Shown in pieces: positions 4,046 through 18,899 of a DNA stretch of 28,210 nt. The notes beneath the pieces were generated by a model. That model did no database searches. It saw nothing but the letters and a program-made list of their open reading frames with translations, and was not told the DNA's origin. The stretch covers positions 1 to 28,210 of the IMG/VR virus record IMGVR_UViG_3300017917_002014; one strand, 5' to 3'. Each line of letters begins with the position of its first letter. Positions within the stretch are counted from its first letter, which is position 1. This stretch comes from a virus. The position numbers were made by a program, and so were the translations under genes.

Positions 4046-4864
4046 ATGATAGATAAACTTCTTATAAATTCACTTGACAATGAAAGCAAAGATAAAAACG
4101 TTGCAGTTTTATTATCTGGTGGAGTAGATAGTTTATCTGTTGCATTTGCTGCAAATAGATTAAACAAAAATATAACAGCATATACATTTCATTTAAAAAA
4201 TCAATTGAGTTATGACGCAGAAAAAGCAATTGAAGTATCTTCTATATTCAATTGGCCAATTAAAGTTATAGAAATTCCTACAGACAATTTAGAAAAAGAT
4301 TTTTCAACATTGACAAATGAAATTAAATGTATAAAAAAAACTCATTATGAATGTTGCTTTCCCTTTTTATATATATATCCACAAATAAAAGAAACAGAAG
4401 TTTTAAGTGGTTGGGCCGCAGATGGTTATTATGGTATAAGTAAAAAAGCAATATTACATTATACTAAAGGTAAACCAAAATCAAAATTTGATGAGTTTAG
4501 AGATATATATTTCTCAGATAACAATAGAGCTGGTTATATATGGCATAAAAGAATTGCCGACAAGTATAATAAACAATTTATAACACCCTATTTAAACAAT
4601 AGTATTAAAGAATTTTTTTATAACAAAGACTGGTATGATTTAAATGCACCATTTCAAAAACACCACGTTGTAACAGCGTTTGATGAATTTAAAAAATTTA
4701 CATTCAAAAAACATATTAACTTACAATTAGGTTCAGGTGTAGATAAATTATTTGAATCATTGTTATCAAATAAAAAAATTAATTTTAAAAACAGAAAAAG
4801 AATTATGGATATTTGTAGAGATTGGTCTCAAATGTCAACCTCAACAGGAACATTACCTATATGA
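4046..4864 (+). CDS. PP-loop ATPase, asparagine synthetase-like, 272 aa
   Basis: The N-terminal motif VAVLLSGGVDSLSVAFA (SGGVDS at residues 24-29) is the PP-loop that adenylates a substrate with ATP. VLSGWAADGYYG further on resembles the sG.gaDe.fGGY segment of the asparagine synthetase C domain. There is no N-terminal glutaminase domain, so ammonia or another protein would supply nitrogen, or the enzyme acts on something else. ATGA couples it to RNase H. A role in nucleotide or base modification is possible, but the substrate cannot be read. Confidence 0.7.
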   Translation: MIDKLLINSLDNESKDKNVAVLLSGGVDSLSVAFAANRLNKNITAYTFHLKNQLSYDAEKAIEVSSIFNWPIKVIEIPTDNLEKDFSTLTNEIKCIKKTHYECCFPFLYIYPQIKETEVLSGWAADGYYGISKKAILHYTKGKPKSKFDEFRDIYFSDNNRAGYIWHKRIADKYNKQFITPYLNNSIKEFFYNKDWYDLNAPFQKHHVVTAFDEFKKFTFKKHINLQLGSGVDKLFESLLSNKKINFKNRKRIMDICRDWSQMSTSTGTLPI

Positions 4865-5706
4865 TATTAGTCGATTTAAACCAAGTTTTAATTTCTAATT
4901 TAATGGCTCAAACAGCAGGTAAACCTGAAAATATACCTGACAAAAATATGGTAAGACATATGGTTATTAATTCATTAAGAGGTATGAATTTAAAATTCAA
5001 AGAACAATATGGAACAATGATATTGTGTGCAGACGCAGGTGAAGTTTGGCGTAGAGACGTATTTCCAAATTATAAACATTCCAGAAGAAAAGGTAGAGAA
5101 GCATCTACTACTGATTGGGTTAATATTTTTTTAGTATTATCGGAAATACGAAAAGAAATTGCTGAAAATTTTCCTTATGTTGTATTACATATTGAAAAGG
5201 CTGAAGCAGATGACATTATAGGTACACTAGTATTAAATCATACAAATAGACCTATTTTGATTATTAGTGGTGATAAAGACTTTATACAATTGCAAACAAA
5301 TCCAAATGTAAAACAATACGCCCCTATACAAAAAACTTTTATAGGAGAAGGTATAGATCCTAAAAGATTTTTACACGAACAAATTATAAAAGGTGATCGT
5401 TCAGATGGTATACCCAATATATTAAGTCCAGATGATGTTTTTTTAACAGGTGAGAAACAAAGACCTATTAATAAAAAACGACTTGAAGAATGGGCAAGTG
5501 TTGATAAGATACCACTAGGAAGTGAAACAAGTAAATATTTTGAGAGAAATAAGACATTAATAGACCTTTCTAACACTCCTAAAGAGTTACAGGAAACTAT
5601 TATAAATACATATAGAGAATATAAAATACCTAGCAGGTCCAAACTGTTACCGTACTTTATGAAGCATAAACTAAAATCGTTAATGGAAAACATTGGTGAT
5701 TTTTAA
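4861..5706 (+). CDS. rnh: RNase H / 5'-3' exonuclease, T4 type
   Basis: 281 residues from ATG 4861 (MILVDLNQVLISNLMAQ), which overlaps the upstream stop as ATGA; the frame is open further upstream. It carries the FEN-1/T4 RNase H signatures: Asp near residue 5, ILCADAGEVWRRDVFPNYK, the acidic cluster KAEADDIIGTL, ISGDKDFIQLQ, and GDRSDGIPNILSPDDVF. T4 RNase H removes RNA primers from lagging-strand fragments with gp32. In T4 it lies close to genes 33, 59 and 32; here these begin at 18684. Confidence 0.9.
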   Translation: MILVDLNQVLISNLMAQTAGKPENIPDKNMVRHMVINSLRGMNLKFKEQYGTMILCADAGEVWRRDVFPNYKHSRRKGREASTTDWVNIFLVLSEIRKEIAENFPYVVLHIEKAEADDIIGTLVLNHTNRPILIISGDKDFIQLQTNPNVKQYAPIQKTFIGEGIDPKRFLHEQIIKGDRSDGIPNILSPDDVFLTGEKQRPINKKRLEEWASVDKIPLGSETSKYFERNKTLIDLSNTPKELQETIINTYREYKIPSRSKLLPYFMKHKLKSLMENIGDF

Positions 5707-9551: not shown

Positions 9552-9580
9552 TTGACAATACACTTAAAATTTGATATAAT
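9552..9580 (+). promoter_or_regulatory. Consensus sigma70-type promoter, leaderless
   Basis: TTGACA (9552-9557), 17 bases, TATAAT (9575-9580): a perfect consensus, with TGA directly before the -10 box. The ATG at 9587 lies 6 bases after the -10, where the transcript should begin. A second TTGACA lies 12 bases upstream (9540-9545) as part of a direct repeat ATTGACAATA. Confidence 0.75.
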
Positions 9581-10519: not shown

Positions 10520-10917
10520 AATTATATAATACAATAACTAAAGATTCTTTAAAATCATTACCTAATGCCGCTAAAGGTTATGAGCAAAGGATACATATAC
10601 CAGAATTTACTTTTTTAGGTGTACACGAGCAACCAGACTTTGGTGTTATCAGAATATGGTTTTACGGAAATGAAAAAACTATAGAATTAAAAAGTTTTAA
10701 AATGTATTTGTATCAATATAGAGATACAATTTTAAGTTATGAAAGATGTATAGATTTATTATATAAACATATAAAAGAAGTTTACGAACCAACAAGAGTT
10801 AGAATTGAAATAGGATTTAGACCTAGAGGTGGTATAAGCAGTAAATTAGTTGTGGATAGTGATTGGGGTCATTTGGGTGGTACAGATAAATTGTGGCAAG
10901 CACACGAGGTTGAATAA
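10516..10917 (+). CDS. QueF-like T-fold protein without the catalytic cysteine, 133 aa
   Basis: Strong similarity to the 7-cyano-7-deazaguanine (preQ0) reductase QueF: PEFTFL (29-34), QPDFG (39-43), the QueF motif IELKSFKMYLYQYR (56-69) and FRPRGGIS (101-108). In the bacterial enzyme PEFTSL is followed by CPxTG with the Cys that attacks the nitrile; here GVHE (35-38) stands there, one residue shorter, with no Cys. The His of the usual FHE is Tyr75 while the Glu (76) remains. It probably keeps the fold and a purine site but not ordinary nitrile reduction. ATGA couples it to its neighbour. Confidence 0.8.
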   Translation: MKLYNTITKDSLKSLPNAAKGYEQRIHIPEFTFLGVHEQPDFGVIRIWFYGNEKTIELKSFKMYLYQYRDTILSYERCIDLLYKHIKEVYEPTRVRIEIGFRPRGGISSKLVVDSDWGHLGGTDKLWQAHEVE

Positions 10918-11495
10918 TGAATATAATAACTGAAAACGAAATTATAAAAAAATATGATTTCTCATCTATTATAAGAACTAACGATAATATTGAAATTATT
11001 GATACAGTAAAAAGTATTATCGACTCGGGTAATTATTTTGATGAAAAAAATTCACCCAAATATCAAACTAAAGAAAACATATTTGGTAGACAACTACCAT
11101 CATTTTTAAAGCTAAGACTTACTTTCATTATGTCTTGTTTTTTTTATTTAAATAAAGAAGTAAAAATAAAAGGTGTTAATGCGTGGTCGTTTATGACTAA
11201 AAAAAATGATAATCCTGATAGAGATAATCTTTGGCATCATCATCACTATGATAAATCTATAAAAAAATTATCAGGTATATATTACGTACATATTCCACAC
11301 GATAAAGAAAATTATAATATATCAGGTACAGAATTTACTTTAGAAGATAGTCCAGAAAAAGGCAACCATTTTTTTGTTAAACCAGAATCTTTTTCTTGGT
11401 TAATATATCCTTCACATATATGGCATAGACCAGGAATAAATAATTCAGATGAATATAGATACGTTGTTGCAGCAGATATGGGATATATAGAGTAA
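10917..11495 (+). CDS. 2OG-Fe(II) oxygenase, 192 aa
   Basis: Double-stranded beta-helix signatures are present: HHHHYD (His110-x-Asp112), SGIYYVHIP, FFVKPESFSWLIYPSHIWHRPG (distal His170) and an Arg at 181 (YRYVVAADMGY) that would hold 2-oxoglutarate. The facial triad and Arg look intact, so it should be active. Such oxygenases are common in T4-like marine phages, targets unknown. It is tied to both neighbours by one-base stop/start overlaps. Confidence 0.8.
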   Translation: MNIITENEIIKKYDFSSIIRTNDNIEIIDTVKSIIDSGNYFDEKNSPKYQTKENIFGRQLPSFLKLRLTFIMSCFFYLNKEVKIKGVNAWSFMTKKNDNPDRDNLWHHHHYDKSIKKLSGIYYVHIPHDKENYNISGTEFTLEDSPEKGNHFFVKPESFSWLIYPSHIWHRPGINNSDEYRYVVAADMGYIE

Positions 11496-12690: not shown

Positions 12691-13377
12691 ATGACAAAAA
12701 AATTTAATTTTATTAACGTTGACACTTCCGTATTACCACCATTAAAAAGAAAAAATGTAGATGGACATAGATATTATGAAATAGATGGTACAGCATATCC
12801 TTCAGTAACTACTATACTTTCACTTAAAAAAACAGAAGAATTAAAAGAATGGCGTTCTAAAGTCGGCGAAGATGTTGCTAATTGGGAAATGAAAAGAGCA
12901 GCATCAAGAGGCAACTCTTTACATACTTTAGTTGAACAATATATTAAAGGCGAAACACCTACAATAAGAGATGTATTACCATTAGGAATGTTTAGATTGT
13001 TAAAACCATATATTGATAAAATTGATAACGTACATTTACTAGAAACAGTTATGTATAGTAAAAAATTAACTATTGCTGGTCAATCAGATTGTATTGCAGA
13101 ATATGATGGTAAGTTATCTGTAATTGATTTTAAATCTGCTAATAAAGAAAGACAAGAAAGTTGGATTGAAAATTACTTCTTACAAACAACAGCATATGGT
13201 ATGATGTATGAAGAATTATATAATAAACCAATTGAACAAATTGTAGTATTACTTGCAGCAGAAGATGGTACTGTAGGAGTATGGACAAAAAATCCAAAAG
13301 ATTATCAAGCTAAGTTATTAGCATCTATTGAAAATTTTTATAAACATATAAACTCAAAACTTGAAGTACAAAAATAA
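12691..13377 (+). CDS. PD-(D/E)XK nuclease (RecB/Cas4-like), 228 aa
   Basis: Nuclease core: SRGNSLHTLVEQY (residues 72-84), GQSDCIAEYDGKLSVIDFKSA with Asp133, Asp146 and Lys148, and the downstream QTTAYGMMYEE (Gln165...Tyr169) typical of RecB-like exonucleases. It also carries TAYPSVTTIL near the start, seen in phage exonucleases of this group. It probably takes part in host DNA breakdown or phage recombination. It has its own promoter with almost no leader. Confidence 0.85.
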   Translation: MTKKFNFINVDTSVLPPLKRKNVDGHRYYEIDGTAYPSVTTILSLKKTEELKEWRSKVGEDVANWEMKRAASRGNSLHTLVEQYIKGETPTIRDVLPLGMFRLLKPYIDKIDNVHLLETVMYSKKLTIAGQSDCIAEYDGKLSVIDFKSANKERQESWIENYFLQTTAYGMMYEELYNKPIEQIVVLLAAEDGTVGVWTKNPKDYQAKLLASIENFYKHINSKLEVQK

Positions 13378-13381
13378 ATGT

Positions 13382-13999
13382 ATGTATTACGTAGATTTAC
13401 CAGAACTTCCTAGTGAACTTATATATTCTATAAAAATTCAAGCCAATATTATGGCACTTGATGAAAATTGTAATTCAGGAAAAGAATACAATAAAAATAA
13501 AAATTTTGCATATACAGAAATAGAAGAATTTTTATATTCAAAACTTGTAAGTGATCTTTTATTACCAAAACTTAAAAAACCAACTACATCATATATATTT
13601 GCGTTAAGAAATAAACAAAATATACCAGCAGATTTCCCACCACATCTTGATGAGTATAGAAAATTAAGTTTAAATTATATAGTTGAAACAGGTGGTAATA
13701 ATGTACAAACTTCATTTTACGACTTAGAAAGACCTAAAGATGATAAAGAGTTTAAATCTAAAAATATTCCATATGAAGATTTAATTAAAACTCAAAAATA
13801 TGTTTTACTAAAAAACAAATGGAATTTATCTAATACACAAGTATGCCATAGTGTAGAAAATTTAGATGATTTAAGAATTATTTTATTTGTAGTATTTGAC
13901 GATAATACTGATTATGAAACTTTTACAAAAGATTATACGGAACTATTAACTGAAGTACCTAATTTATTGACAGTATTTAATTCCAATAAATTTATATAA
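13382..13999 (+). CDS. 2OG-Fe(II) oxygenase-like protein, 205 aa
   Basis: I chose ATG 13382 (MYYVDLPELPSELIY), four bases after the nuclease stop; an upstream TTG at 13361 would overlap it. FPPHLDEYRKLSLNYIVET gives His88-x-Asp90, and WNLSNTQVCHSVENLDDLRII gives His156 and Arg165 at the spacing of the jelly-roll oxygenases. The rest is divergent, so substrate and activity are open. A hairpin follows its end. Confidence 0.55.
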   Translation: MYYVDLPELPSELIYSIKIQANIMALDENCNSGKEYNKNKNFAYTEIEEFLYSKLVSDLLLPKLKKPTTSYIFALRNKQNIPADFPPHLDEYRKLSLNYIVETGGNNVQTSFYDLERPKDDKEFKSKNIPYEDLIKTQKYVLLKNKWNLSNTQVCHSVENLDDLRIILFVVFDDNTDYETFTKDYTELLTEVPNLLTVFNSNKFI

Positions 14000-14003
14000 T
14001 ATA

Positions 14004-14028
14004 GAGGTATGTAAAAATAGCATACCTC
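14004..14028 (+). terminator. Hairpin after the oxygenase-like gene
   Basis: GAGGTATG (14004-14011) and CATACCTC (14021-14028) pair perfectly over a 9-base A-rich loop. No T run follows. The late-type promoter at 14045 is 17 bases downstream. Confidence 0.5.
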
Positions 14029-14044
14029 ATATGTTGAAACCTCA

Positions 14045-14052
14045 TATAAATA
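14045..14052 (+). promoter_or_regulatory. T4-type late promoter, leaderless
   Basis: TATAAATA followed by ATATT and then ATG at 14058. The run TATAAATAATATTATG differs by one base from that at 24577-24562 on the minus strand. In T4 the start lies about six bases after the last A, here at the ATG. Confidence 0.5.
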
Positions 14053-14057
14053 ATATT

Positions 14058-14252
14058 ATGATAGAACGATTAAAAGACTTAATATCTAAAAACTATACAG
14101 ATAAACAAGTTAAAGAAAAGAACGACATTCTATTGAGAAGTAGAAAAGAAGTTGAAATTAATGGTAATGGTACGTCAGGATACACTATAAAAGAAGGCGA
14201 ACATAAAGGTACCGTATTAGGCCATATCACTAGAAGTCCTAAAGTAATTTAA
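14058..14252 (+). CDS. Small protein, 64 aa, probably late-expressed
   Basis: The start at 14058 (MIERLKDLISKNYTDKQVKEK) is preferred over the in-frame 14031 because 14031 lies right behind a terminator stem and upstream of the late promoter box. The C-terminal half (GNGTSGYTIKEGEHKGTVLGHITRSPKVI) is Gly-rich and probably beta-stranded. No family recognised. Confidence 0.55.
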   Translation: MIERLKDLISKNYTDKQVKEKNDILLRSRKEVEINGNGTSGYTIKEGEHKGTVLGHITRSPKVI

Positions 14253-15154: not shown

Positions 15155-15178
15155 CAATGGCCACTTCGGTGGCCATTG
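15155..15178 (+). terminator. UUCG hairpin terminator overlapping a promoter
   Basis: CAATGGCCAC (15155-15164) and GTGGCCATTG (15169-15178) form a ten-pair stem with a TTCG loop, the most stable RNA tetraloop type (C-UUCG-G). Its last three bases lie in the TTGACA of the next promoter. Confidence 0.75.
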
Positions 15179-15204
15179 ACAATCCGCCTAAATTATGATA
15201 TAAT
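15176..15204 (+). promoter_or_regulatory. Consensus sigma70-type promoter, leaderless
   Basis: TTGACA (15176-15181), 17 bases, TATAAT (15199-15204), TGA before the -10. The ATG at 15210 is 5 bases after the -10. It drives the operon 15210-18666. Confidence 0.75.
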
Positions 15205-15209
15205 GTATT

Positions 15210-15824
15210 ATGAATAATTATCATAGATATATTAAATTACCTTTTACATATCCAAAACCAAAATTATTCAATACTCAACCTGATAAATGGCAAATTGTAG
15301 CCGTACCTCCAGAAGAAATATATCAACCTTTTTTAGATTGGTTTAAACCATTTGGTGATAAACATAATATAAAGATATCAAAAGTATTAGAAGCTTTTTA
15401 TACTGCACCTAATAATAAATTTCATATACATAATGATTCATTTTATCTATCGAATATGACTAAGTTAAATTTTACTTGGGGACCAACCAATAGTTTAACT
15501 AGATGGTGGAAAATAAAAAATGAAAAAAATTTAAAAACTTTACATTATCCTGTACAAGGATCACCAGAAAAACCTGATATTATACCTAATAGACCTCACG
15601 ACTATGATAATGCCACATTGGCAGAAGAAGAAGATTGTGAAATAGTATATGAAAAAGTAATAGATAAACCTAGTTTATTAAATGTAGGACACTTACATTC
15701 TGTATATAATCCAAATAAAGATCAAGGCAGATGGACATTATGTTTTATACTATTAAAAAATGATGGTAGTCTATTAGAATTTTTAGATGCTGTAGAGATA
15801 TTTAAAGATACAGTATATGAATAA
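15210..15824 (+). CDS. 2OG-Fe(II) oxygenase-like protein, 204 aa
   Basis: First gene of the operon, leaderless. NKFHIHNDSFYLSNMTKLNFTW gives His74-x-Asp76, and LLNVGHLHSVYN (His161/His163) and RWTLCFIL (Arg174) give the distal His and an Arg for 2-oxoglutarate, as in aspartyl-hydroxylase/phytanoyl-type jelly rolls. The WGPTNSLTRWWK insert is unusual. It overlaps the radical SAM gene by 8 bases, so the pair is probably translated together. Confidence 0.6.
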   Translation: MNNYHRYIKLPFTYPKPKLFNTQPDKWQIVAVPPEEIYQPFLDWFKPFGDKHNIKISKVLEAFYTAPNNKFHIHNDSFYLSNMTKLNFTWGPTNSLTRWWKIKNEKNLKTLHYPVQGSPEKPDIIPNRPHDYDNATLAEEEDCEIVYEKVIDKPSLLNVGHLHSVYNPNKDQGRWTLCFILLKNDGSLLEFLDAVEIFKDTVYE

Positions 15825-16911
15825 ATTATACAATACACATTCATTATGTCATATATGCTATAGACATATACCTGCTGAAGTATATGTAGATAATAATATT
15901 AGATATATTAAAAAAGAATGCCCAACACACGGTCCATTTAAATTTATACAAGATCCGGATGCAGAATTTTGTGAGAAGTTAAAACAAAAAACTAATAAAG
16001 TTTATCGTAGAATATTAATGTTAGAAACTACTGATAAATGCAATTTAAAGTGTCCTCATTGCTATCATATACCCAATAATGTTAAAAAAGATTTAGATAT
16101 ATTAAAAATATATGATGATATTAAGAACGCACCTAAAGATATTAAAGATATTATACTAGCTGGTGCCGAACCAACAATGAGAGATGAGATATTTAATATA
16201 ATAGATTATTGTAATACAAATAATAGAACAGCAAGTCTTTTAACAAATGGTGTTAGACTACACGATATAAATTTTGTAAAAAAATTAAAAAAACATAACA
16301 TACACGCTGTAGAGATAGGTTTAAATCATCATTCTTATCAAGGTAAAAAAATACATAATAAACAATTACAAGGTATAAAAAATTGTATAGATGTTGGAGT
16401 TAAAATTCATTACATAGGTTATACTGTAGAAAAGTATGATCATTTAGTAGATATTATAAAAGAAATAAAAACATTCCCAATATATAGAGATAATAAAAAT
16501 AAAAAAAGATATCAATTTAGAATTAGATTAGGTAGTGATATTGGTAGAATACCAAATGAGCCAACAGCATTTATTAGTACTAATTATAAAGAAATAGAAA
16601 AAGTTGCTAATGAATTGGGTCACGATTTAATAAGTGGTAATAATGAAGGCGATGATAATATGTATCATATGTTCGGTTATATAGATGGTCATAAGATTAG
16701 AATTATACAATGGCCAGATGCTAAAAACATAGATATGAGCCAATTAAAACATTCACCTTGGGCTAAATTTAACAGACAAAATTATATAACAAATTTTGTA
16801 CATCAAGTTATAACAAGAGATGCATATGTAAATAAAAAATTACCTGTATTAGATGATGTACCGGACACTTATAAATATAGTATAGTAAACGACGGAGATA
16901 TAAATGGCTAA
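15817..16911 (+). CDS. Radical SAM enzyme with N-terminal Cys ribbon, 364 aa
   Basis: The 4Fe-4S motif DKCNLKCPHCYH (Cys75, Cys79, Cys82) is followed by the GEP-type motif ILAGAEPTMRDE and LLTNGVRL, so the SAM core is complete. The N terminus has a second Cys set, LCHICYRHIPAEVYV and KKECPTHGPF, resembling the zinc-ribbon start of the MJ0619/Tes (tetraether lipid synthase) radical SAM family. The C-terminal part (VHQVITRDAYVNKKL) is less typical. It should make a 5'-deoxyadenosyl radical; the substrate is unknown. Overlaps both neighbours by 8 bases. Confidence 0.85.
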   Translation: MNKLYNTHSLCHICYRHIPAEVYVDNNIRYIKKECPTHGPFKFIQDPDAEFCEKLKQKTNKVYRRILMLETTDKCNLKCPHCYHIPNNVKKDLDILKIYDDIKNAPKDIKDIILAGAEPTMRDEIFNIIDYCNTNNRTASLLTNGVRLHDINFVKKLKKHNIHAVEIGLNHHSYQGKKIHNKQLQGIKNCIDVGVKIHYIGYTVEKYDHLVDIIKEIKTFPIYRDNKNKKRYQFRIRLGSDIGRIPNEPTAFISTNYKEIEKVANELGHDLISGNNEGDDNMYHMFGYIDGHKIRIIQWPDAKNIDMSQLKHSPWAKFNRQNYITNFVHQVITRDAYVNKKLPVLDDVPDTYKYSIVNDGDING

Positions 16912-17536
16912 TAAAAATATTGTAGTTACATTAACTAATGATATTGTTTTTGAAACAGAACAAAATTACAAAACAAATTTTGATATATATTTTAATAACA
17001 ATATATTTACTAGCAATAAAGAATTACAATTAACTTCAAACAATATACAAAAATCTATTGAAGTTGATTTTGATTTCGATATTCCAAATACAATTAGATT
17101 AATAGTGTTTGCTAAATCGTCACAAAAATTATTCAATTCTATAGAACAATATGATATAGAAATAAAACCTAATGAAAATTATATACCTAATACTAATAAA
17201 TTATTTGATTTATCTATAAACATTAATGAAAATTTTTTAACAAATAATCCTACTAATATAACTTATGATGATGTATTAAAAAATGATAGACCAGATATTA
17301 TAGATTGGAAAAAAGAATACTTGTTTAATAATGAAGTCCTTGGTGTTTACACTAAAGATACTCCTAACAATCAAAATTTAAATAATAAATTTTCAAAAAC
17401 AGCATACCTTTGGAATTTAAATGATAAATTACAATTTGATATTAAAGAAATGTATATCAGCAATAAACCAGAATTATTAGGTAAAGAGGGTTATTGTTTA
17501 CCAGGAAATAGTACTATTAGATTTGAAATTATATAA
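16904..17536 (+). CDS. Unknown beta-rich protein in the radical SAM operon, 210 aa
   Basis: GGAG precedes ATG 16904, which lies inside the end of the radical SAM gene. The chain is Asn- and Ile-rich with alternating strands (NIVVTLTNDIVF, TIRLIVFAKSSQKLF), one Trp segment (IDWKKEYLFNNEVLGVY) and a conserved-looking end (GKEGYCLPGNSTIRFEII). It has no signal peptide and no motif I know. Position suggests a partner or carrier for the enzymes on each side, but nothing in the sequence proves this. Confidence 0.7.
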   Translation: MANKNIVVTLTNDIVFETEQNYKTNFDIYFNNNIFTSNKELQLTSNNIQKSIEVDFDFDIPNTIRLIVFAKSSQKLFNSIEQYDIEIKPNENYIPNTNKLFDLSININENFLTNNPTNITYDDVLKNDRPDIIDWKKEYLFNNEVLGVYTKDTPNNQNLNNKFSKTAYLWNLNDKLQFDIKEMYISNKPELLGKEGYCLPGNSTIRFEII

Positions 17537-17544
17537 TTTTAATT

Positions 17545-18666
17545 ATGAACAATATGATGTTACAAGGTTTGATACCTGGAATACAAACTAATATAAATCT
17601 AGCTACAGATAGTTGGCAATTTGGAACTATTATTAACAATCAAAAAATTATTGACAGTAGTATAGGTCAAGGTTGTTTTACTCTTGGTTTTAAAAGACAC
17701 GATATAATAGATTATGTATGTAATAAACTAAAAACATATAAACCAGAATGCGCCGAATCATTAATAGGAAATACAGATGAAATATTATTAAATGATGTAT
17801 CTTTTGAATTATCTCAAAAATTATACAATATAAGTGGTGGTTATAAAAGTTTTTATTCTTTATCAGGTAGTGATGCAAATGAAGGTGCAATCAAATTAGC
17901 ATCTGCATATCATTATAAAAAAGGTAATAATTTTAAACATAAAATTGTTAGTTTCAAAAATAGTTATCACGGTAGTACGTTTTTAAATTACAATTTGGGC
18001 GATGCATTATTTGAAAATCCTTTTTATAGTTTATTACCATATGAACACACAATACGATTAGATAAAAATTTTGAATTAGGAGATATTGATTGGACCCAGG
18101 TTGCAGCAATTATAGTAGAAACACGATCTTGGAGTAATTGGTTAAAGAAAGAACCTACTGATTTTTGGAATAAATTAGAACAAATTAGATATACTTTTGA
18201 TGTATTAATTATTATAGATGATATTTTTATAGGTGGGGGTAAAACTGGTGAGGTAATAGGATGGAAATCTTTAGATATTAAACCTGATATATTTACATTA
18301 GGTAAATCTATCACAGCTGGATACTTTCCATTATCTATAACGCTTTATAACGATAAAGTCAATGCAATTCTTCCTAAAGACTTCAACTGGGATCACGGAT
18401 TTACTTACAGTTTTTCATTACCTGGAATATTGAGCACATTAAAATACCTTGACATATTAGAAAAAGAAAATATATTTTCAAATTTCAAAACTTTACAACA
18501 TAGAACCGAGTCTGTAATTAATACTACTAATTTTTTAATTAAAAATCAGTTTGGATTAATATATAATATAACAAATGGTAAACAAAACTTTTTGTATGTA
18601 ATACCATTAAATGCCACAGATGAGTACTTCAGCATATTAAAAAATACCCTTGACAAATACCTATAG
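17545..18666 (+). CDS. Class III PLP-dependent aminotransferase, 373 aa
   Basis: Clear fold-type I signatures: SIGQGCFTLGF, SLSGSDANEGAIKLA, FKNSYHGSTF (Tyr/His-Gly), VLIIIDDIFIGGGKTG (the Asp that binds the PLP pyridine nitrogen) and LGKSITAGYFPLS with the PLP lysine at residue 254. The family includes aminomutases, ornithine-type aminotransferases and sugar aminotransferases. It is slightly short for the family and the second half is divergent. Class III enzymes are rare in T4-like phages. The stop region also holds the next promoter. Confidence 0.85.
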   Translation: MNNMMLQGLIPGIQTNINLATDSWQFGTIINNQKIIDSSIGQGCFTLGFKRHDIIDYVCNKLKTYKPECAESLIGNTDEILLNDVSFELSQKLYNISGGYKSFYSLSGSDANEGAIKLASAYHYKKGNNFKHKIVSFKNSYHGSTFLNYNLGDALFENPFYSLLPYEHTIRLDKNFELGDIDWTQVAAIIVETRSWSNWLKKEPTDFWNKLEQIRYTFDVLIIIDDIFIGGGKTGEVIGWKSLDIKPDIFTLGKSITAGYFPLSITLYNDKVNAILPKDFNWDHGFTYSFSLPGILSTLKYLDILEKENIFSNFKTLQHRTESVINTTNFLIKNQFGLIYNITNGKQNFLYVIPLNATDEYFSILKNTLDKYL

Positions 18667-18678
18667 TTGTGATATATT
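18650..18678 (+). promoter_or_regulatory. Sigma70-type promoter, leaderless, inside a coding end
   Basis: TTGACA (18650-18655), 17 bases, TATATT (18673-18678), TGA before the -10. The -35 is made by the codons for Leu-Asp-Lys at the end of the aminotransferase. The ATG at 18684 lies 5 bases after the -10. Confidence 0.75.
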
Positions 18679-18683
18679 ATAGT

Positions 18684-18899
18684 ATGAACTCTAAAGAATT
18701 TTCACTTAAAATAGAAAACTTAGTACAATCTAAAAAGATGTTGTCTTATATGGATGCTGTATTATTTTTCTGTGAGGAAAATGATATAGACCCTAGTACT
18801 GTGGCTAATTTATTATCTAAATCTATTAAAGATAAAATAACTGTAGAGGCTCAAAATTTAAACTATATACCTAAGACGGGTAGATTACCAGGAGTATAA
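18684..18899 (+). CDS. 33: gp33-like late-transcription coactivator, 71 aa
   Basis: ATG 18684 is preferred over the in-frame 18669, which would lie inside the -10 region. MNSKEFSLKIENLVQSKK, SYMDAVLFFCEENDID and EAQNLNYIPKTG resemble the small gp33 proteins of T4-like marine phages; T4 gp33 joins RNA polymerase to the sliding clamp at late promoters. Its position directly before gp59 and ahead of gp32 is the T4 order 33-59-32, which supports the call. Confidence 0.65.
   Translation: MNSKEFSLKIENLVQSKKMLSYMDAVLFFCEENDIDPSTVANLLSKSIKDKITVEAQNLNYIPKTGRLPGV

Follow-up and report, generated by a model that had tools for sequence, protein, structure and literature searches.

The window analysed here is a 28,210-nt stretch of DNA (a 28.2-kb fragment) from an uncultured T4-like phage (IMG/VR record IMGVR_UViG_3300017917_002014) that carries on its + strand, at positions 15210-18666, an operon of four genes for a putative iron oxygenase, a radical S-adenosylmethionine (SAM) enzyme, a small protein, and an aminotransferase. 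We consider it probable that this operon encodes a tailoring pathway belonging to the virus and is one of the alleles in which a modular phage operon occurs, the product being decorated with amino or guanidino groups. In related phages the gene families, their co-linearity, and the lengths of their junctions recur, and partner genes replace one another. The four ORFs reported in a first-pass annotation of the window are all present: ORF1 (15210..15824, 204 aa; Fe(II)/2-oxoglutarate (2OG)-dioxygenase-like, family c3), ORF2 (15817..16911, 364 aa; radical SAM), ORF3 (16904..17536, 210 aa), and ORF4 (17545..18666, 373 aa; class III pyridoxal phosphate (PLP) aminotransferase). Three of them had been described as overlapping or touching; the measured junctions are two 8-bp overlaps on the + strand, ORF1/ORF2 (ATGAATAA, 15817..15824) and ORF2/ORF3 (ATGGCTAA, 16904..16911), and an 8-nt spacer between ORF3 and ORF4 (17537..17544).

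Strong support for a short pathway, as the annotation had proposed, comes from the linkage of these genes in relatives, where they are neighbours rather than scattered; the scatter that the annotation had named as a refutation was thus not seen. Viral contigs were scanned with radical SAM and aminotransferase profiles, followed by all-against-all clustering; the relatives obtained (numbered L003 to L062 below) are environmental contigs, mostly fragments, and operon counts derive from a simple ORF caller. Their recurrent gene order is ORF1 family, c5 (a protein of 178-184 aa directly before the aminotransferase), aminotransferase, c2 (a 2OG-FeII_Oxy_3 protein, i.e., a second 2OG oxygenase), and finally an arginine amidinotransferase with profile matches to HsvA (3.3e-33), SxtG, AGAT, and StrB. 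Within five genes of the aminotransferase in 49 contigs, which are partly redundant (23 aminotransferases are left after removing those >93% identical), c2 and the amidinotransferase each occur in 40, the ORF1 family in 33, c5 in 31, and the full block in 29. The stable core is ORF1, a beta-sandwich protein, and the aminotransferase, usually together with the second 2OG oxygenase and the arginine amidinotransferase. The junctions are equally constant: ORF1 overlaps c5 by 8 bp in 27 of 30 cases, the gap between c5 and the aminotransferase measures 8 nt in 23 of 31 junctions, and that between ORF3 and the aminotransferase does so in all four. Such values are rare outside the operon (about 1-4% of 593 same-strand gene pairs) and are identical even though the proteins differ by ~50%. 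Since the same gene set and junctions are conserved in dozens of contigs, a chance origin can be excluded.

The window shares this order and these junctions, with an ORF1-family protein, a protein in the c5 position, and the aminotransferase, including the 8-bp overlap and the 8-nt gap, and the simplest reading is that the radical SAM gene lies precisely between ORF1 and the gene that takes the c5 position. Neither c2 nor an amidinotransferase follows its aminotransferase; gene 33 (gp33, Trans_coact, PF16805) lies directly 3' of ORF4, followed by gene 59 (gp59, PF08993/PF08994, phrog_269). L030 agrees with the window in gp59 and in the genes downstream and has, at the corresponding position upstream of gp59, an ORF1-c5-aminotransferase-c2 version that includes a methyltransferase-like gene; alleles thus swap at one locus. 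The annotation had located the operon between rnh and gene 33; the latter neighbour is verified by its PF16805 match, whereas the upstream gene called 'rnh' matches phrog_298 'exonuclease' instead.

A radical SAM gene lies near 10 of the 49 aminotransferase genes, and when 24 contigs were searched along their full length, 11 contained one (E <= 0.001; 10 strong matches); it is therefore an optional member of the operon. In other ARRANGEMENTS, it adjoins a tryptophan-halogenase-like gene (PF04820, 2.9e-88), with the radical SAM gene first, in L013 (2174-4821) and L019 (8001 onward); L015 (3645-7427) has radical SAM, halogenase, and class III aminotransferase genes together. In L014, L016-L018, and L062 the radical SAM gene faces an amidinotransferase-aminotransferase-2OG-oxygenase operon. 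Pfam matches identify genes for SufE and an A-type (IscA-type) Fe-S carrier around the radical SAM gene of L015 (3244-3648 and 7444-7779), and a SufB-like ORF, recognised by eye, lies upstream in L017 (2172-3614); these genes can be read as a phage-encoded Fe-S supply near the radical SAM enzyme. In L028 (2806-4649), a 382-aa radical SAM homologue adjoins a 229-aa protein without Pfam match, several genes away from the operon.

ORF1 reached no 2OG model of Pfam, PHROGs, or NCBIfam. Its AlphaFold2 model (predicted local distance difference test, pLDDT, 86.4; predicted template modelling score, pTM, 0.84) adopts a double-stranded beta-helix fold, which bears out the oxygenase-like identity given to it in the annotation. 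Foldseek assigned the model a probability of 1.0 to YcfD/NO66, and the best match by VIA-align was 7v4m, a non-heme hydroxylase from the biosynthesis of a nucleoside antibiotic (Z 10.2; 2.6 A over 124 residues), with further matches to proline 3-hydroxylase, PHD2, and KanJ. The residues H74-x-D76...H163...R174, corresponding to an HxD...H triad plus a distal arginine for 2OG, are invariant in 13 ORF1 homologues, and we infer a metal-binding role for this site. Homologues in viral contigs are 42-53% identical. ORF1 is thus best read as a predicted Fe(II)/2OG oxygenase that represents a new branch by sequence; it is classed only by fold and site, this divergent branch having matched no described 2OG sequence family. 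Two further oxygenase-like genes are found in the window, one encoding a 2OG-FeII_Oxy_5 protein (10917-11495) and the other an HxD...H...R protein without family (13394-13999) that also occurs upstream of the operon in L030.

ORF2 matches the Radical_SAM profile (PF04055, 4.5e-15, 56.6 bits vs a cutoff of 29.5) and has a CX3CX2C motif at aa 75-82 whose cysteines (C75-C79-C82) are invariant in the family. Upstream of this core, an N-terminal rubredoxin/zinc ribbon (15847..15930, + strand) with the invariant pattern C11-X2-C14-X20-C35-X2-H38 matches PF23545 (Zn_ribbon_HMPTM, 2.1e-12, 46.8 bits vs a cutoff of 27). The comparison with Tes/MJ0619 (tetraether lipid synthase, GDGT-MAS) made in the annotation holds for this ribbon, since the rubredoxin domain of Tes/MJ0619 has the motif C9X2C12X20C33X2H36 (PMC9433317), i.e., the identical C-X2-C-X20-C-X2-H spacing; the radical SAM core is also common to both, and Tes (7tol, 1.2e-17) is the best PDB sequence match of ORF2. 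However, ORF2 lacks the cysteines of both the N- and the C-terminal auxiliary [4Fe4S] clusters of Tes, and on this ground we rejected it as a member of that family; besides ribbon and core, the only invariant cysteine of the ORF2 family is C190. Likewise, ORF2 scores 60.8 bits against the NCBIfam equivalog NF045702, whose cutoff is 450. The likeness is confined to the SAM core and the ribbon and, because the auxiliary-cluster cysteines are missing and the equivalog model is missed by far, ORF2 is, as judged by these features, a ribbon-bearing radical SAM enzyme and not a Tes. Its homologues are 41-97% identical.

The identification of ORF4 as a class III aminotransferase is borne out by its match to Aminotran_3 (PF00202, 1.1e-35, 123.6 bits vs a cutoff of 30.5) and by residues D225 and K254, invariant in 18 phage homologues, which match the expected pyridine-binding aspartate and Schiff-base lysine. 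In a phylogenetic tree these 18 phage homologues occupy one side of a branch against 14 cellular genes (support 100/100), which places ORF4 in a phage-only clade. ORF4 shares 48-57% identity with the other phage members and 22-36% with the nearest cellular genes found in a genome scan with the aminotransferase; the cellular relatives include Pelagibacteraceae aminotransferase genes, which group with the other cellular ones. All NCBIfam subfamily cutoffs shown (BioA, ArgD, omega-AT, and others) were missed widely. The daptide-type aminotransferase NF041821, tried as a candidate, gave 83 bits vs a cutoff of 450, below BioA or ArgD, and was rejected.

ORF3 is probably a diverged counterpart of c5. 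The c5 model (L030 3162-3716; pLDDT 90.8) is an all-beta sandwich that best matches 8bl6 (Z 10.2), a single-chain immunoglobulin dimer designed de novo; no clear natural relative of this fold was found, natural chains reaching Z <=6 and BFVD giving nothing below 1e-3. An hhalign comparison of ORF3 with the c5 profile gave a score of 26.5 (probability 14-25%, P 0.0008-0.002), compared with <=17.2 for 60 shuffles and <=18.8 for ~130 further proteins encoded at these loci, c5 itself and L030 c119 (33.5) excepted. Position and junction lengths point the same way. A homology of ORF3 with c119 was not supported.

In the tailoring pathway that we favour, ORF1 and ORF2 would functionalise unactivated C-H positions of the substrate, and ORF4, using PLP, would aminate a carbonyl that either results from this or is supplied by the host. 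A second 2OG oxygenase would also act in most relatives, where the arginine amidinotransferase would convert the amine formed into a guanidine cap; for the window we propose that the radical SAM step replaces the c2/amidinotransferase pair, leading to a differently finished product. ORF3 and c5 would serve as non-enzymatic binding, scaffold, or carrier partners that change together with the tailoring genes. The annotation had judged the substrate not readable from the sequence, and our analysis ends at the same point; a small molecule or sugar, as a free metabolite or a surface-glycan precursor, is most likely, and this is the weakest step of the proposal. We prefer it because the relatives of the amidinotransferase and the closest structural match of ORF1 act on small molecules, and because a similar cyanophage cluster has been read that way (PMC7824862).

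Several points weigh against this pathway. The reactions are predictions from the genes, and the radical SAM gene, as said, is optional. The homology between ORF3 and c5 is probably real, yet weak by sequence and based largely on position. Searches for an amidinotransferase in the window and in a 40.7-kb sister contig, both of them fragments, gave none. Finally, the operon has no glycosyltransferase, ligase, or transporter as a constant member, so that a glycan or an exported product is not directly supported. A broader proposal, which we hold only tentatively, is that the operon family forms a new biosynthetic system, specific to viruses and widespread among environmental T4-like phages. It would make an amino/guanidino product, its tailoring enzymes (radical SAM, halogenase, amidinotransferase, and 2OG oxygenases) being interchangeable and c5/ORF3 acting as a carrier or substrate protein dedicated to the system. 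Its product might conceivably be a free bioactive molecule, a surface-glycan decoration, or a modification of a DNA base or of a protein.

Macromolecular substrates appear unlikely. The side chains of ORF3/c5 or of a virion protein could be oxidised, aminated, and, in the relatives, guanidinylated: the c5/ORF3 protein looks non-enzymatic, is translationally coupled, and sits between the enzymes, c5 carries the invariant motifs CPK and DAEE.LP, and the structural matches of ORF1 include the protein hydroxylases PHD2, NO66, and YcfD. Yet these motifs are not retained in ORF3, the known amidinotransferase relatives act on small molecules, and the closest structural match of ORF1 is the antibiotic-pathway hydroxylase, all of which makes protein modification an improbable alternative. 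We give little credence to hypermodification of phage DNA bases or nucleotides, in which the oxygenase or the radical SAM enzyme would oxidise a base, the aminotransferase would convert it to an aminoalkyl base and, in the relatives, the amidinotransferase would yield a guanidino base. 2OG, PLP, and radical SAM enzymes do occur in known phage base-modification pathways, and the operon lies beside replication and transcription genes (gp33/gp59 and, in L032-type contigs, helicase-like and primase-like genes downstream). On the other hand, the operon proteins showed no recognisable DNA-binding domain, and the thymidylate-synthase/hydroxymethylase profile PF00303 was not found in 12 records, all fragments, the control having matched in 9 genomes; HMUDK_hel also gave no match, which is uninformative since its control gave none either.

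A lipid substrate was hinted at by the Tes-like radical SAM enzyme, and the best PDB match, the identical ribbon spacing, and desaturase-like genes recognised by eye from their histidine motifs (two adjoining the aminotransferase in L059 and one near it in L028) would agree with it. Nevertheless, with both auxiliary Fe-S sites of Tes missing from ORF2, a similarity limited to SAM core and ribbon, and a score far below the Tes model cutoff, the likeness to Tes does not mark ORF2 as a lipid enzyme, and we regard this option as highly improbable. Scarcely better is the prospect that the four genes are unrelated auxiliary functions merely sharing a promoter, for instance to modulate the 2OG or nitrogen state of the host. 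2OG oxygenases are common in marine myoviruses and have been proposed to act there in 2OG signalling (PMC3037559), and the radical SAM gene can stand apart from the aminotransferase; against this, order and junctions are conserved over a large divergence, and the amidinotransferase and second oxygenase recur beside the aminotransferase.

Phage-borne tailoring clusters as a general kind are already known. In the Campylobacter phages CP220 and CPt10, an interchangeable module contains five radical SAM genes and a putative glycine amidinotransferase (Timms et al. 2010, PMC2853527), its function having been left open as metabolic (PMC2853527). It resembles the present operon as a phage-borne, interchangeable radical SAM block with an AGAT-like amidinotransferase, and the CP220 enzyme (L065 15001-16062) is 27.7% identical to those of the environmental relatives over 98% of its length. 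It differs in having five radical SAM genes instead of one, in its amidinotransferase, which neither the window nor its sister contig (fragments) has, and in the lack of any match to the ORF4 aminotransferase family in CP220. For the cyanophage S-SSM6a, a halogenase/2OG/carbamoyltransferase cluster has been predicted to function in secondary metabolism or capsule decoration (PMC7824862). Here the likeness consists of a phage-borne gene group with hydroxylases and a halogenase, for which synthesis or decoration of a small molecule or glycan has been predicted, and of the pairing of radical SAM with Trp_halogenase in L013 and L015; by its description, however, the core of that cluster consists of carbamoyltransferases and a HemK-like methylase, and no aminotransferase, amidinotransferase, or radical SAM enzyme is named. 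The terminal gene of the relatives belongs to the same fold family as HsvA, SxtG, AGAT, and StrB, which fits amination followed by guanidination, although such an enzyme was not found in the window or the sister contig. In 50,697 deposited phage records, no homologues of ORF1, ORF2, or ORF3 were detected at the sensitivity used, and ORF4 retrieved distant genes only (<30% identity). A genome scan with the radical SAM enzyme gave no confirmed match, and a literature search of partial coverage found no phage paper combining amidinotransferase, aminotransferase, and radical SAM. The operon, which recurs in dozens of environmental phages, thus apparently has not been described before.

A sigma70-type promoter, TTGACA-N17-TATAAT (15176..15204, + strand), matches the consensus at 12 of 12 positions and its -10 box lies 5 nt before ATG15210, which makes a leaderless transcript likely. 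The consensus motif reported in the annotation is real, but that it drives the operon is inferred, because it is not conserved in 97-98% identical relatives: L004 has no -10 box, and the upstream sequence differs in L003 and L012. A hairpin (15155..15178) with a 10-bp stem and a TTCG loop lies directly 5' of the operon, after a 54-aa ORF, and overlaps with the -35 box; it is retained in L004 and replaced by a different one in L003/L012. Weak promoter-like matches occur in the region about as often as in shuffled sequences (102 found vs 99.8 expected), so that only sites with 11-12 of 12 matches are meaningful. The operon closes, as had been noted, with another such motif, TTGACA-N17-TATATT (18650..18678, + strand), which overlaps the 3' end of ORF4 and precedes ATG18684 by 5 nt. 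As this geometry equals that of the operon promoter, gene 33, called at 18669-18899, probably has its true start at ATG18684, again leaderless, rather than at the upstream GTG at 18669. The same promoter-to-ATG geometry precedes the radical SAM gene of L019. In the window, TTGACA-N17-TAT(A/T)(A/T)T recurs at 9552, 12654, 14257, 15176, 18650, and 21668, often with TG before the -10 box and with ATG only 5-8 nt downstream, an arrangement suggestive of frequent leaderless or near-leaderless transcription in this phage.

Other genes surround the operon in the window and its relatives. The window encodes an Asn_synthase/QueC-like ATP-pyrophosphatase (4046-4864; PF00733, 1.7e-9). L032 has a porphobilinogen deaminase gene (HemC, 4827-5690; PF01379, 3e-59) just 5' of the operon and, like similar contigs, a carbamoyltransferase (13063-14064; PF02543) between the helicase-like and primase-like genes 3' of it. 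In L059 (4663-7349), where the two desaturase-like membrane enzymes precede the aminotransferase, glycosyltransferase-like ORFs lie further upstream and a ketoacyl-synthase-like gene ~4 kb 3' of the aminotransferase, all recognised by eye from the translations.

The usual view of lytic phages is that they take single metabolic genes from their hosts, whereas here a multi-gene, virus-only tailoring operon is found, with an order and junction lengths that persist across phages whose proteins are about half identical and with late-step enzymes that are exchanged. If our reading is correct, viruses of this type would make their own chemistry during infection, a gene set for oxidation, amination, and guanidination would make the product searchable by mass spectrometry, and ORF1, c5, and ORF3, which belong to no database family, would gain a testable function.

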